Source: Candidatus Cottocaccamicrobium excrementipullorum (GTDB lineage Bacteria > Bacillota > Clostridia > Lachnospirales > Lachnospiraceae). From it: DNA of 64,000 bases. A model generated the notes under the pieces. That model was not told where the DNA came from and ran no database searches. It worked only from the letters and a program-made list of their open reading frames with translations. A program made the position numbers and the translations under genes. This document shows, in pieces, positions 1-11,331 of the stretch; the first letter of the stretch is position 1; each line of letters starts with the position of its first letter. Where the stretch lies: assembly GCA_018713255.1 (NCBI GenBank), contig DVFL01000040.1:1-64000 (forward strand), read 5' to 3'.

Positions 1-1
1 A

Positions 2-61
2 TTGTTCCTTTCTGGAAGATCTTCTTCCATGGTCAGAAAAACTTCCGGCGGAAATCCGTAA
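2..61 (+). CDS. C-terminal tail of an upstream gene (partial)
   Basis: An open frame enters from the left edge and stops at TAA 59-61, giving a tail ending in RKTSGGNP. It lies in the same frame as the next gene and 57 bases before it. Frame 1 is also open here, so this is only the more economical reading. No function can be given. Confidence 0.3.
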   Translation: MFLSGRSSSMVRKTSGGNP

Positions 62-73
62 AGCCTAAATATT

Positions 74-94
74 GGTGGCTGCCAAGCAGCCGCC
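74..94. other. Hairpin before the 243-aa gene
   Basis: GGTGGCTGC, a CAA loop and GCAGCCGCC form a near-perfect stem with one G-T pair. There is no T-run on the plus strand, so this looks like an RNA processing or attenuation structure between two co-transcribed genes rather than a complete terminator. Confidence 0.45.
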
Positions 95-118
95 TAAAAA
101 TGTCAAGGTACTCGCTAT

Positions 119-850
119 TTGGCGTTTACGAACATAACACTCTCCGAGGACACAAAATACTACCTCAAGCTTGTAGCACCAAACAGCGGAGACGGCAAAC
201 TGGATACCAGCGTATCAAACTTCGGAATACACAAAGGCGGCCTCGTAACCCAGATAGAATACAAGGTAGCCGCAGACGTAGACGGCAACGTCACAGTTTA
301 CCGGAACAACACACCCATCAAGACCATCAACAAAACGCAGGGTGTAGAAGTGCTGTTAGCAGACGCCGAAATTAAGCGAGTAGATGACGCAACAAAAGCA
401 GTCACGAACTTCGTAGCAGCACTCGACCGCAATCTTGGTTACGACAGACAGAACGCAACATGGTACAACGAAGCGTTTGACGGCATTACCGTACTCTACA
501 GCTACTTGTCCTACGACATTGGCTTAGGCGATGGCAGTACAGGCGTTATCTCCGGAGAAGCAAAAAGCGTTCCCGTAAGAACAGCCGTACAGGATACATT
601 CTTATCTGGCGTGCTTGAGAACAGAGCCGACCTCTACAACTTCAAGTCCGACAGCGAGAACAAGGTTCGTAGCAGTATGATTCTGACAGGTGAGTATACT
701 GATGGCGGAGTTAGTTATCCTAGCGGCAATCTCGGAGCCTTGACAACGAAGAACGGGACGACAATGCAGATTACCTTACCGAACATGATGTTGTTTGCAT
801 ATAGTAAAATGTGGTATATCCCGAACGCTAATGTTACAGACCTCAACTAA
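119..850 (+). CDS. Unrecognised 243-aa protein of the mobile element
   Basis: I do not recognise this protein. The frame starts at a TTG (119) preceded by a weak AAGG; no better start is visible. There is no signal peptide or membrane segment. The sequence is acidic, rich in G, D, N, S and T, has short beta-prone stretches, and has no Cys or His-based catalytic motif. The composition resembles a structural or virion protein more than an enzyme, but that is inference. Its A/C-rich codon choice differs from the chromosomal genes downstream. It is followed by a stem-rich region and a strong terminator, so it is probably the last gene of an operon that starts outside the window. It sits on the element that ends at about 4893. 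Confidence 0.7.
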   Translation: MAFTNITLSEDTKYYLKLVAPNSGDGKLDTSVSNFGIHKGGLVTQIEYKVAADVDGNVTVYRNNTPIKTINKTQGVEVLLADAEIKRVDDATKAVTNFVAALDRNLGYDRQNATWYNEAFDGITVLYSYLSYDIGLGDGSTGVISGEAKSVPVRTAVQDTFLSGVLENRADLYNFKSDSENKVRSSMILTGEYTDGGVSYPSGNLGALTTKNGTTMQITLPNMMLFAYSKMWYIPNANVTDLN

Positions 851-857
851 ACAGAGC

Positions 858-983
858 GTTAAAAACAGCAGTTTAACAGCGCAATTTTAATATCTCAAGT
901 ATTGGCTAATAGGCCGAATACAAGGTATAGAAACAGGCTCTTACAGGGTCAAACCTGTAAGAGTCATTAGCCACCTCAAGTGG
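858..983 (+). ncRNA. Candidate structured RNA (nested stems) after the 243-aa gene
   Basis: Several perfect stems follow the stop codon. GTTAAA/TTTAAC pairs at 858-863 and 872-877. An outer stem GGCTAAT/ATTAGCC pairs 904-910 with 966-972 and encloses a perfect 10-bp inner stem CTCTTACAGG/CCTGTAAGAG (938-947 with 954-963). A small CCAC-CTCAA-GTGG hairpin follows at 971-983. A strong terminator ends the region at 1050. The arrangement is that of a folded 3' UTR, a small RNA or a phage replication or packaging signal. No known family was recognised. Confidence 0.45.
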
Positions 984-1012
984 TGAAATAAGAGCTTCTT
1001 TCTAATCCATGT

Positions 1013-1050
1013 CAGATACGGACTCATCACCCGTATCTGATTTTTTATTG
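1013..1050 (+). terminator. Rho-independent terminator
   Basis: CAGATACGG pairs perfectly with CCGTATCTG across a 9-base loop, and ATTTTTTATT follows. It closes the transcript carrying the 243-aa gene and the structured region. Confidence 0.85.
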
Positions 1051-1241
1051 TCTCCCAAGACGTAAAAATAGCTCTCCTGAGGACATATTTTTTCAATCGG
1101 TTATTCAGACAGGGGTTTGGTAGATTGAAGGTAATTTTCGGAAGCCACCTTGCTTGAAAACAGCTTACCGAAGGCTTTTTTGTGTGTCCCGAAGGCTAAA
1201 TTTATATACTCTCCGAGAGCAAAAAAGTGGCAACCAAAGGC

Positions 1242-1282
1242 TCATTTTTGAACTTTCATTTTGAGGGGTCAAAAATGAAGTT
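1242..1282. repeat. Two overlapping alternative palindromes
   Basis: TCATTTTTGA (1242-1251) is perfectly complementary to TCAAAAATGA (1269-1278). AACTTTCATTTTGA (1251-1264) also pairs with TCAAAAATGAAGTT across a GGGG loop. The same right arm can therefore form two mutually exclusive hairpins. The flanks (1051-1438) hold no credible gene. They contain a weak stem with T-run (AAGCC 1142 to GGCTTTTTT near 1181) and repeated GAAGGCT words. Confidence 0.5.
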
Positions 1283-1381
1283 TGATTTTGGGTGCAGGGA
1301 AATATCAGGGTTATTGAATCAAAATAGGTTCAAATTTGGCACTGGAAAGTGAACAATAAATAGGGGTAAATTTCGTGAAAA

Positions 1382-1413
1382 ATTATCATCCGAATATCTA
1401 TATTATCATCCGA
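1382..1413 (+). promoter_or_regulatory. Paired 12-bp direct repeats upstream of a small ORF
   Basis: ATTATCATCCGA occurs at 1382-1393 and again at 1402-1413, a 20-bp period that puts both copies on nearly the same DNA face. They lie just before the ribosome site of the 53-aa ORF, where an operator or iteron pair would sit. Confidence 0.45.
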
Positions 1414-1438
1414 CGGGTAATTCGGAGGTCGGCGCAGG

Positions 1439-1600
1439 ATGAGTGAAATTCAATCAAAAATAACAGCCAATCAGTCAGTAACAGTGTCCCGTTCAGTAAA
1501 ATATGGGGATGTTCAGCAGATAAAGTCTCACCCGCACAAGCAATTCAAAGTTTATCAGCAGGCTGCCCCGGAGATACAGAACGGAGGTATAAAACAATGA
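1439..1600 (+). CDS. Small unrecognised ORF, 53 aa
   Basis: This ATG-started frame begins MSEIQSKITANQSVTVSRSV and ends in EIQNGGIKQ. It is too short for the ORF track. A GGAGG-type ribosome site stands about 11 bases before the ATG, and paired direct repeats lie just upstream. The product is polar, with no membrane segment and no known motif. Its stop overlaps the ATG of an 8-codon frame that has its own GGAGG. It is the only frame in the 850-3115 interval that has both a good ribosome site and plausible composition, so it may be a small element-encoded regulator or accessory protein. Confidence 0.4.
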   Translation: MSEIQSKITANQSVTVSRSVKYGDVQQIKSHPHKQFKVYQQAAPEIQNGGIKQ

Positions 1601-1623
1601 GGGAATTTCTGAAAAAATTGTAA
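1597..1623 (+). CDS. Possible 8-aa coupled leader peptide
   Basis: ATG 1597 overlaps the preceding TGA and follows ACGGAGGTATAAAACA, an excellent ribosome site. The frame is only MREFLKKL before TAA. It could be a translated leader, or the stump of a decayed gene. Confidence 0.2.
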   Translation: MREFLKKL

Positions 1624-3115
1624 CCCAAAGAATAAGCACAAGCTACCTATCGTTAGTTTTACATATTTATAATAGGAAAGAACAGACCCGTACATAGGAC
1701 TGTCACCCGGAGCTTATTCAGCACATGAGTAGACAGAAGGAAAAAGCAAACAAAAATATAAGCCAATCATACAGCACTTATTCTCCTGTGGGGATGATAA
1801 GGCCACCGCAGAAAACAGTGCGGATTCTTCAGCGCATATCAAGTCAAACAATGTGGATAGGGTTTGTAGATACACATAGCAGTCACCCGAAGTGTCACTT
1901 CTGCTTTGATAAGTACACATTGTTATTCTCCAGATAATATCTCAGCAAAAATAAAACAAAAATTTCATACACAAAGCCGCCCTCCTGCAAGGCGGTTGTC
2001 TGCCGATGGTGTAATTGCCTTATAGCAGCGGTCAGCGATGGCATACACACAGAGGTCGGCCTACGGAAACTCAGCCGGGCAGGCTGTACACATTATGGCT
2101 TACCTGGGGTTCTCTCTGTATACAATGTGCTTGGCAGGCAGTAAACAGCATAGGCTGTCTTGCCTTGCAGGCTAGGGAAAAATGGCAGCTCTGTGAGGCT
2201 CTACCGGGCAACTAAGGGCTTTCAAAGGCTATGGCAGGAGAAAATCACAGTCACAGCAAGACAAGGCGTTCCAGCGGCTTCTGAGGGCTTCCAGGCATGT
2301 TGAGGTTTATTGGGAACTACTGCAATCTTAAAGGATGATTACTCGGTATCTCTCAATGCAGCTAAAAAGGTGTCAGGTACAAAAATATGAGTGCAACGGC
2401 ATTATTTTTACTGGAATCTCCATGATTTACGGGGGTTCGCAGAAGAAGGCAAAGGGACGCAGGCAGAAAAGAGCGGCTAAAAAAGGGTTGCAAGGTACAT
2501 TTTAGCTGCTTAGTGGCCCGCAGCTTATAACTGACCCTCGTGGTTCACAGAGTCAATAATATGAAGAATTATTACTAAACCAGTTGCAGGTTCAGGACAT
2601 TCAAATTTGCAAGGGAAAAACAGCGAAAAATGCCAGCCAAATGATAAGCAAGTACAGCCCTTCAAGAAAAAGCATGGCCCTCATGGAATGAAGGATATAT
2701 CAAGGCAGTGCTCAGCCTGTAAACAGTGAATATAAAAAGATAATCAAGGCATAATTCGCAAAAATATAGAGTCCAAAAGCATAGAACTCTCTGACTGCAC
2801 GAATTAAGCACATACCTCTGAAATAAATGCAGTTTAAAAACAGAAAAGATTGTCTCCCGCTGGATACTGCGTGAGTAAGCAGGGACAGCATAATAAGTTC
2901 ACTCTGCCTGAATTTCAATCAATCTTGTTATCCAGATATGAAGATATAGCTTCCCGTATAGTAGCAGGCGGCAGATAAGCGTCATTATGAAGGTTTACCA
3001 GTCATAAAAAGGCAGACTACCGGCCCTGCACATGTAGACAGGATAAAACATGGTCAACCGGCAGTAATTTTGATGAAAGTAGAGCCCTGAGGGTATAGCT
3101 CCAATATTTTAGGTC
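1624..3115. other. 1.5-kb stretch without a credible gene inside the element
   Basis: All six frames are broken often, and the listed ORFs lack ribosome sites and coding-like composition. Visible structure includes a hairpin at about 1976-1993 (CCGCC/GGCGG), many GGCT-containing words at 2090-2300, an open stretch without a start codon near 2570-2690, and a GAGC/GCTC stem at about 3082-3102 just before the recombinase. It could hold decayed genes or a large non-coding RNA. Nothing more can be supported by eye. Confidence 0.5.
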
Positions 3116-4834
3116 ATGAGCCATGTCAGAGAAGGTGGCTTATTGTCCAATTTATATACAGCTCCAAATCAAAAGAAATGGAGCAGTATAATGATATTTT
3201 ACAATTATTTGAAGGAACTTAAATGGAGTTACACTCATAACCATGGGCTTTTTCTCAATGAAAATGAAATTGTAGAGTTAACCAGAGGCAGTGAAACAGA
3301 AGTTCAAGAAAAAATAGCGTTAAACTGCTATGGCGAAGCACATACCGAGGGAAAGAGCAAGAAACCTTTGGGATATAATATATTTAATGTGATGGCAGAT
3401 TATAGACAACTTGACAAATTACAGAGAAAGACTATAGAATTTTTAGTGTCAACGGGAATTGGAAATAATATGCCGAGAAAGAAGAAGCAGGAATTTACGA
3501 TTGTATTCCAAGGGACAAAGAAAGAGAAAGAAGAAGGAAAAGGACGGTTGATGATATACGTCCCCCTGCTTAATGGTGGACGGTCAGCCGTTTATGGAAA
3601 GACAGATAAGGAGGTGACTATTAAAGCCTACAAAAGACAACTGGAGGACCGTCAGAGCGCCTTTCTGGAGGAATTGTCTAAGCTCGATAATGAAGCACTG
3701 GAAAAGTTAGATATAAGGCTTATTTCCCTTATGGAAGAGCAAAGCAGAACCAGTGATAAAGATGCGGATACCAAAAAAGTCTTGACGTTTGAAGAAGCAT
3801 TTATGCATGCCGTACATACTAGAGTGGCTAAAAAAGAAATAAAAGGACAGACCAGAGATAATTATATCAATGTATATAATCGGATATTCAAGAATAATAA
3901 AGGGTTTACCCAGCGGCCAATTTCAGAGATAGAGACAGATGATGTCTATGATATTCTGGAAGAAGTTGTAAATCGAGGGATAACCAGGCATAACTTTGTC
4001 AATCCTTATGTGGTGGTTCGCTTACCATTTCGATTTATTATGAGTCTGAGAAAAACTGACCCTTATAAGGTGAGTTTACAAGTGAGTTTAGATGAACTTG
4101 CCGAAAAAGTAAAGGGATTCAATAATAGGTTTACTATACCTAAAAAGGAGGAAGAAGCCTATAATGAAGAAGATGTTGATGATTGTATAAGCGCAATATA
4201 TAAGTTAATGTCTAGGAAACCAAATATCAAGTCAAGATATTATTTGATTATGGCAAATTTCTATTTGGGTTTACGAGCCGGCGAATTGGCTGCGTTATCA
4301 GTAGAGGATGTTGATATGGACCAGAAGGTACTTTATGTAAGACACTCAAAAACAACCAAGAAAGAATATGATGAGAATATGCAGCCGGGTAAATATCTTC
4401 ATGAGATTGGAGATACTAAGACTCCCAATGCTGTGCGAGAGCTTCAAATCGTAGACGAGGTATATGAAATTTTTACAGAATTATTTGCCTATAGAAAGCG
4501 CAAGGGATACCGTGGGAAGTATTTAATTTCAGATGATGGTAGAGCCAAGGATTATACTGGCGCTCTTAAAGGCGCATATAGACAAATCCGTATCGAGATG
4601 GCCAATAATATACACGGACACCTTCAAAGGAAAACATTTGCCACTATGAATTACTTAAATCCTAATGTAGAGGATAAGGAATTGCAAAAGATGTTAGGAC
4701 ATAGCAGCTTAGTGACTACATTGAATAAATATATTCTTCCTATGAGGAAAAGCCGTGAAAAGTTAAGGGCAGCCGTACAATCTACATACAGTAAAAAAAT
4801 ACAACAAAATAGTGCTGAAAATACAACAAAATGA
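3116..4834 (+). CDS. Tyrosine recombinase / integrase of the mobile element
   Basis: This is a site-specific recombinase that would integrate and excise the element. The C-terminal catalytic domain shows the first Arg in LGLRAGELAAL (about residue 386), a HxxR box in HGHLQRKTFATM (about 500), then LGHSSLVTTLNKYI with the second His and the Tyr nucleophile (about 538). A Lys lies in TKTPNAVRELQI. The middle of the protein carries a SAM-like core-binding domain. At 572 aa it is longer than most relatives. The first ~118 residues look unlike an integrase, and internal ATGs at about 3191 and 3470 are alternative starts, because no strong ribosome site precedes 3116. It reads toward the junction with the chromosome, as integrases next to an att site often do. 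Confidence 0.88.
   Translation: MSHVREGGLLSNLYTAPNQKKWSSIMIFYNYLKELKWSYTHNHGLFLNENEIVELTRGSETEVQEKIALNCYGEAHTEGKSKKPLGYNIFNVMADYRQLDKLQRKTIEFLVSTGIGNNMPRKKKQEFTIVFQGTKKEKEEGKGRLMIYVPLLNGGRSAVYGKTDKEVTIKAYKRQLEDRQSAFLEELSKLDNEALEKLDIRLISLMEEQSRTSDKDADTKKVLTFEEAFMHAVHTRVAKKEIKGQTRDNYINVYNRIFKNNKGFTQRPISEIETDDVYDILEEVVNRGITRHNFVNPYVVVRLPFRFIMSLRKTDPYKVSLQVSLDELAEKVKGFNNRFTIPKKEEEAYNEEDVDDCISAIYKLMSRKPNIKSRYYLIMANFYLGLRAGELAALSVEDVDMDQKVLYVRHSKTTKKEYDENMQPGKYLHEIGDTKTPNAVRELQIVDEVYEIFTELFAYRKRKGYRGKYLISDDGRAKDYTGALKGAYRQIRIEMANNIHGHLQRKTFATMNYLNPNVEDKELQKMLGHSSLVTTLNKYILPMRKSREKLRAAVQSTYSKKIQQNSAENTTK
4799..4832 (+). repeat. 12-bp direct repeats at the integrase 3' end
   Basis: ATACAACAAAAT occurs at 4799-4810 and 4821-4832, a 22-bp period. 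The copies span the last integrase codons and lie within about 100 bases of the inferred element end. Arm-type integrase binding sites of Tn916-like and lambda-like systems have this placement; assignment here is inference. Confidence 0.5.
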
Positions 4835-4893
4835 TAATGTTGATAGGGCAAAAACCTTGAATTTACAAGGAAATCCGAGAATTTAACTCTAAT
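4835..4893. other. Inferred right end (attachment site region) of the element
   Basis: Homology to a chromosomal gene begins at about 4894, while the integrase ends at 4834, so the junction lies between them. CCTTG (4855-4859) and CAAGG (4866-4870) are a perfect inverted pair with a 6-base spacer, the form of a tyrosine-recombinase core site. The exact crossover cannot be fixed without the left end. Confidence 0.5.
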
Positions 4894-5091
4894 ATGCATG
4901 ATATTGGTATCCTGGCATCCTTCGACCTTGTTGCGGTGGACCAGGCGTGCATTGACCTGGTTTATTCTGCGGAAGATGGAGCCTCCCTGATCCAGCGGAT
5001 TGAGTCCCGCAACGGGCTGCTGACCCTGGAACATGCCGGGGAAATCGGGCTGGGAAGCCGCACCTATAATTTGGTAAGTATTGATGGATAA
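4894..5091 (+). pseudogene. 3' fragment of a DUF362-type iron-sulfur protein, target of integration
   Basis: The 65 residues match the C-terminus of DUF362-domain proteins as I know them: GILASFDLVAVDQACIDLVY followed by RIESRNGLLTLEHA and GLGSRTYNLVSID. The N-terminal part, including the Fe-S binding region, is absent. Upstream, the frame stays open only to 4861 and no longer resembles the family. The simplest reading is that the element inserted into this gene and displaced its 5' part to the left of the window. The ATG at 4894 is an internal Met, not a genuine start. Confidence 0.7.
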
Positions 5092-5130
5092 ATGGATGAT
5101 TAACAGAAAAAAATTAGGAGGTTAAATAAC

Positions 5131-5685
5131 ATGAAAAAGAACATTGGAAATGCACTGGCACTGTATCCCACCCCTCTCGTTGTTGTAGGAGCCATGGTCG
5201 ATGGAAAACCTAACTGGCTTCTTGTAGGGCATCTTGGCATCATCGGCCACGACCATGTAATGGTCAGCCTGGCGTCAGCTCATTATACGAATCAGGGCAT
5301 TAAGGCGAACAAAAAACTTTCCATCAATATTGTAGACGAGGCAATGCTTGCGAAGGCGGACCGCTCCGGCTGCGTAAGCGGAAGCAAGGAAGATAAATCG
5401 ACTTTATTTGATTATATAACAGATGATGCAGGCGTGCCCATGATTGTACAGGCGCCGGTAACCATGGTGTGCAGCGTAGAGGATATTTATGAGACAAAAG
5501 GATTTGAAAGTTTTATCTGCACCATTGACGCAACCTATGCTGAAGAAAGCGTGCTGAATGAGGCCGGCAGGATTGACTATCATACCTTAAAGCCAGTGCT
5601 GTTTGAAATGCCTACATATGAGTATCTGCTGACTGGCGATGTGATTGGCAAATGCATGTCATATGGAAAAGAAAAGAAGGATTGA
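5131..5685 (+). CDS. Flavin reductase family protein (FMN-binding split barrel)
   Basis: This is a cytoplasmic flavoprotein of the flavin reductase-like fold, which reduces flavin with NAD(P)H or carries out a related reduction. Evidence is the opening PTPLVVVGAMVDGKPNWLLVG, the middle block VSLASAHYTNQGIKANKKLSIN with its Asn-Lys FMN-contact pattern, and the ending HTLKPVLFEMPTYEYLLTG, all typical of this family at 184 aa. A strong AGGAGG precedes ATG 5131. The stop is two bases from the flavodoxin start, so the two are almost certainly one transcript handling electron transfer. Confidence 0.85.
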   Translation: MKKNIGNALALYPTPLVVVGAMVDGKPNWLLVGHLGIIGHDHVMVSLASAHYTNQGIKANKKLSINIVDEAMLAKADRSGCVSGSKEDKSTLFDYITDDAGVPMIVQAPVTMVCSVEDIYETKGFESFICTIDATYAEESVLNEAGRIDYHTLKPVLFEMPTYEYLLTGDVIGKCMSYGKEKKD

Positions 5686-11148: not shown

Positions 11149-11204
11149 AAAAAAACCTCCTTTGCATGCGCGGGAGGGGACTACTGATTTGGTAAGTGTA
11201 AGTA

Positions 11205-11310
11205 TGATGCTTCCTTACGCCGGTATTATCCGGTTCAAGTAGTGAGGGTCAGGATGGGAAGTCCGGCAGGGCTTCTCATTCAGTCTCAGCACAGAGGCTC
11301 CCCTAGCGTG
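11205..11310 (-). promoter_or_regulatory. TPP riboswitch (THI element) of thiT
   Basis: On the minus strand the leader reads CTAGGGGAGCC, GCTGAGACTGA, CTGACCCTC, TTGAACCGGATAATACCGGC and GTAAGGAAG, the ordered conserved blocks of the thiamine pyrophosphate aptamer. It stands about 57 bases before the thiT ATG. Confidence 0.93.
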
Positions 11311-11331
11311 TTGTATGATTAATCCTTGTGA

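Follow-up and report, generated by a model that had tools for sequence, protein, structure and literature searches.

A row of hairpins with a predicted terminator behind an IS66-truncated mobile-element gene in a member of the Lachnospiraceae

Introduction

The closest described counterparts of the structure considered here are the intrinsic (Rho-independent) terminators at the 3' ends of genes, the stem-loops of the clostridial cip-cel operon and the GOLLD and ROOL RNAs. In the cip-cel operon, stem-loops at transcript ends stabilise the transcripts and direct their processing (PMC10311766). GOLLD and ROOL are large, ornate RNAs of phages and mobile elements (PMC12286853).

The stretch at 851-1050 on the forward strand of a 64,000-nt window, the start of contig C24 in the 42-contig draft genome of Candidatus Cottocaccamicrobium excrementipullorum, resembles each of these in part. 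Like an intrinsic terminator it has an 11-bp hairpin and TTTTTT downstream of an open reading frame on the same strand, but here four additional stem-loops precede the hairpin, over ~130 nt. As in cip-cel, the stem-loops follow a clostridial coding region, although those of cip-cel are placed inside the operon and the array here is known from the folding of its sequence. With GOLLD and ROOL it shares the setting, a structured noncoding stretch beside mobile-element genes; those RNAs, however, extend over many hundreds of nucleotides, whereas 851-1050 is ~200 nt of simple hairpins in a row, with neither an Rfam match nor conserved relatives. We argue that it is probably the 3' UTR hairpin array and intrinsic terminator of a long mobile-element gene cut by an IS66-family insertion. 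The features are collected in Table 1.

Table 1. Features at the start of the window and at the right end of the integrated element
Feature	Position	Strand	Remarks
Right end of IS66-family insertion sequence	1..129	+	TnpC C-terminus, hairpin, terminal inverted repeat ending GGCGTTTAC
C-terminal remnant of long protein, ~239 aa	130..850	+	Homology to C-termini of larger proteins
Stem-loop 1	856..882	+	Weak, -6.3 kcal/mol, predicted fold
Stem-loop 2	885..933	+	-13.1 kcal/mol; apical stem 899-907/912-921; shares GGCT with the proposed outer helix
Alternative outer helix TGGCTAAT/ATTAGCCA around stem-loop 3	903..973	+	Disfavoured by 4.5 kcal/mol
Stem-loop 3 (inner helix of the first-pass annotation)	936..965	+	12 bp, 6-nt loop, -21.1 kcal/mol
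Stem-loop 4	972..985	+	-5.8 kcal/mol
Intrinsic terminator (predicted)	1011..1047	+	11-bp stem (1011-1041), 9-nt loop, TTTTTT tail
Tyrosine recombinase, 572 aa	3116..4834	+	Right end of integrated element; Pfam Phage_integrase, E 5e-17
Host gene 3' end	4892..5091	+	Marks right junction; complete relative L104:567-2144, same genus

A gene truncated by an insertion sequence

Breaks between contigs in this assembly fall at repeats, such ends having ~130 bases in common, and the window opens with one of them. Positions 1-129 recur without a mismatch (100% identity) as the opening of contig C2 of this genome, ahead of a different gene, and in L122, a second genome of the family, a copy of 92% identity lies behind a complete IS66 TnpC with the same C-terminus, itself matching Pfam PF03050 (DDE_Tnp_IS66; E 2e-80) and PF13817. 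These two matches identify 1-129 as the end of an IS66-family element. Judged by its sequence it has both parts that such an end should show, the C-terminus of TnpC, whose last 21 codons occupy 3-65 and end ...CSFLEDLLPWSEKLPAEIRKA ahead of a stop at 66-68, and a terminal inverted repeat at the boundary. A search of the assembly for the other flank, which should appear as GAACATAA (the target duplication) adjoining a left IS end, did not recover it.

Contig C2 has this IS66 end immediately beside a phosphopantetheinyl transferase gene (L019:102-725), the frame of which runs into the IS end; this is possibly another IS66 truncation, or a gene whose start is supplied by the IS. A reading of 1-129 as the 5' end of such a transferase gene was dropped, C2 and the window having only the IS end in common.

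The reading frame ahead of the hairpins had been annotated at first pass as an intact element gene of 243 aa. Its TTG 'start' sits inside the IS66-family terminal inverted repeat, and the frame is the C-terminal remnant of a protein of 886 to >1336 aa. The remnant is 33-35% identical (E 3e-15) to the C-terminus of an 886-aa protein (L106/L114), and 26-29% identical both to a 1098-aa protein of Lachnoclostridium sp. An131 (L119) and to a protein of >1336 aa on an IMG/VR contig (L128). All three homologues found have the remnant's C-terminal tail motif, conserved in these large proteins as IPN..V.DL. Further protein matches (L107-L113; E 0.002-0.05) were to elongation-factor-like and other unrelated frames and were discarded. 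The large proteins themselves (L119:3367-6663, L114:8977-11637 and L128:3-4049) are encoded at mobile-element-like loci and match no Pfam family. No family in Pfam, PHROGs or NCBIfam covers the remnant, and single-sequence AlphaFold gave no usable model of it (mean pLDDT 35). The assembly lacks both the promoter of the gene and its 5' part; neither the 5' half nor the left end of the element was found at contig ends of the same genome.

Folding beyond the stop codon

All the perfect stems named at first pass are present in 851-1050. Two are perfect 10-bp inverted repeats: CTCTTACAGG/CCTGTAAGAG (938-947/954-963, loop of 6), which reaches 12 bp when the flanking G-U and G-C pairs are counted, and TCAGATACGG/CCGTATCTGA (1012-1021/1031-1040, loop of 9), followed by TTTTTT. 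Dinucleotide-preserving shuffles of the stretch are expected to hold 0.003 perfect repeats of at least 10 bp, so the two observed are not due to chance. The proposed outer helix, GGCTAAT/ATTAGCC, also exists, but its arms are 8 bp rather than 7 (903-910/966-973), and with an expectation of 0.25 in the shuffles for repeats of 8 bp or longer it is, taken alone, close to chance.

The first-pass annotation made this outer helix enclose the inner one, and based its claim on that nested architecture. The predicted fold is instead a row of four stem-loops and a terminator. The nested form has a pairing probability of ~1e-4, and forcing it costs 4.5 kcal/mol because stem-loop 2 is broken: the outer helix competes for the same GGCT with the better stem-loop at 899-921.

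The strong terminator placed at the end of the set is borne out in form. The sequence at 1011-1047 has the form of an intrinsic terminator, a predicted stable short-loop stem (-15.8 kcal/mol; the 9-nt loop narrowly exceeds the limit of 8 in a simple terminator scanner) with a T run, TTTTTTATTG, at 1041-1050 directly behind it on the transcribed strand.

Pairing in excess of a plain terminator and of shuffled sequence, as had been asserted, is also found. For the whole of 851-1050 the predicted folding energy is -63.1 kcal/mol (z -6.7), a stability that not one of 200 shuffles reached, and 851-1003, with the terminator left off, still gives z -5.3; no stronger structure occurs anywhere along 1-5300. 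Within the genome the stretch is less exceptional. When 306 gene 3' flanks from part of the same genome were ranked by folding relative to shuffles, the 150 nt 3' of the remnant's stop codon came ~7th, six others folding as strongly or better, which places it in the top 2-3% and makes it not unique. The strongly folding flanks that were inspected are mostly long terminator-like hairpins, whereas here the strength comes from several hairpins ahead of the terminator.

Search for relatives of the structure

No Rfam family matches 851-1050; the best sub-threshold match, SpF11_sRNA, scores 23.9 bits against a gathering threshold of 54 (E 0.1). A blastn search with the structure gave no relative in 200 genomes of the family, in phages or in plasmids. 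A covariance model, R1, which is built from one sequence and is weakly sensitive, found no true relative in 397 genomes of the family or in 1.3 Mb of the same genome, and no match at two of the homologous gene loci. Its matches were a terminator between convergent genes (L101) and the interiors of coding genes, one hsdR-like (L102) and one nucleotidyltransferase-like (L038). Exact searches of IMG/VR with the cores of the structure returned a single 17-base match (L120), which has no R1 match.

Behind all three homologous genes a single strong terminator-like hairpin (-23 to -29 kcal/mol) lies in the 70 nt that follow the stop codon, and the array is missing; at 26-35% protein identity this absence is not a strong refutation of a conserved structure. 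A structured 3' end is thus the rule for the gene family, and the additional hairpins set this copy apart. The proposal of a new structured RNA finds no support in these searches.

Origin and function of the array

Several observations favour a 3' UTR array with a terminator. The array begins 5 nt past the stop codon, and the coding strand folds better than its complement (z -6.7 vs -3.3). It ends in a textbook terminator, and the + strand immediately ahead of the array shows no promoter-like site beyond what chance would give. Relative to shuffles, folding as strong or stronger is seen in six further 3' flanks of the genome. The terminator does not by itself explain stem-loops 1-4, since the homologues manage with one hairpin and 851-1003 folds well beyond its shuffles.

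If the gene were transcribed, its RNA would form four stem-loops in succession past the stop codon, followed by the terminator hairpin, and polymerase would be released at the U run behind it. The hairpins would most plausibly be a barrier to 3'-to-5' exonucleases, or signals for processing of the mRNA. The suggestion of an mRNA-stability element is the part of the earlier reading that survives, as something we infer. An IS66-family element has since inserted into the gene, the 5' part of which is now gone from the contig, so that the present array may be no more than a relic, with any transcription coming from the IS side.

A structured regulatory RNA, either derived from the 3' UTR or a stand-alone sRNA with the four stem-loops as body and the fifth as terminator, is unlikely. 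It would account for folding that remains strong beyond the terminator, and for a compact stretch with several well-separated hairpins and a terminator of its own, but the Rfam, blastn, phage, plasmid and covariance-model searches returned no relative, the homologous genes are without the array and no above-chance promoter precedes it. We are more doubtful still of an orphan form of this idea, a 3' UTR-derived regulatory RNA of an ICE-like element that switches between two conformations (stem-loop 2 or the nested helix) and belongs to a sparsely sampled family.

It is improbable that the stretch acts as DNA, its hairpins forming in the single strand at a transfer origin or a replication or packaging site. 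The inverted repeats do lie close to the integrase end of a mobile element, and folding as single-stranded DNA exceeds that of shuffles (z -5.9). Counts of G-U pairs, considered as a way to tell an RNA role from a DNA role, do not discriminate (6 vs 5 on the two strands) and give RNA no edge. However, the site is immediately bounded by a stop codon on one side and a directional T-run terminator on the other, neither a relaxase nor a replication gene adjoins it and nothing in plasmids or phages matches it; the packaging or replication signal raised at first pass has no positive evidence.

Little credence can be given to attenuation or antitermination serving the small-ORF region downstream, in which the RNA would pair either as TGGCTAAT/ATTAGCCA or as stem-loop 2. 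Many Gram-positive plasmid conjugation operons have internal terminators with antitermination (PMC8955417), and the two helices, 4.5 kcal/mol apart, are mutually exclusive, but the alternative helix keeps clear of the terminator arms, so that no anti-terminator is predicted, and its 8-bp repeat is near chance and without relatives. A small MITE- or REP-like remnant inserted between gene and terminator, with GGCTAAT/ATTAGCC as terminal repeats, would explain why the homologues lack stem-loops 1-4 but is very improbable, the stretch being single-copy in the genome and absent from 200 genomes of the family, with no target duplication recognised.

The right end of the element

The tyrosine recombinase has a long N-terminal part without a family match. 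Among 295 genomes of the order no relative of it appeared at E 1e-30, and phages, plasmids and IMG/VR patterns gave none. Behind it lies the 3' remainder of a host gene, which from 4892 has 73% DNA identity to genome G111 and encodes a fragment with 74% protein identity from residue 311 of a full-length relative. Since a complete relative exists in the same genus, the element is integrated inside that host gene. The integrase and insertion site suggest an ICE-like context; no conjugation genes were seen in the window.

Between the predicted terminator and the integrase lie ~2 kb (1050-3115), A-rich on the + strand, with no ORF of >70 aa in any frame; alternative genetic codes (TAG, TGA or TAA/TAG reassigned) yielded no long frame beyond chance. 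A 53-aa ORF at 1439-1623 (MSEIQSKITANQSVTVSRSVKYGDV...) has a GGAGG site and an ATGA overlap with an 8-codon ORF that also has GGAGG, and the opening DNA of a 70-aa ORF at 1725-1937 resembles its start (79% over 33 bases). Farther along the window, a TPP riboswitch at 11195-11314 on the minus strand scores above the Rfam gathering score.

Conclusions

This locus serves mainly as a reminder to be careful. The wealth of stems stands up statistically, but folding of this strength recurs in about one in 40 gene 3' flanks of the genome, and what had been taken for an 'element gene' ahead of the array is an insertion-truncated remnant. Should the array function as an RNA, a small structured RNA would join the large mobile-element proteins, themselves a poorly described family.
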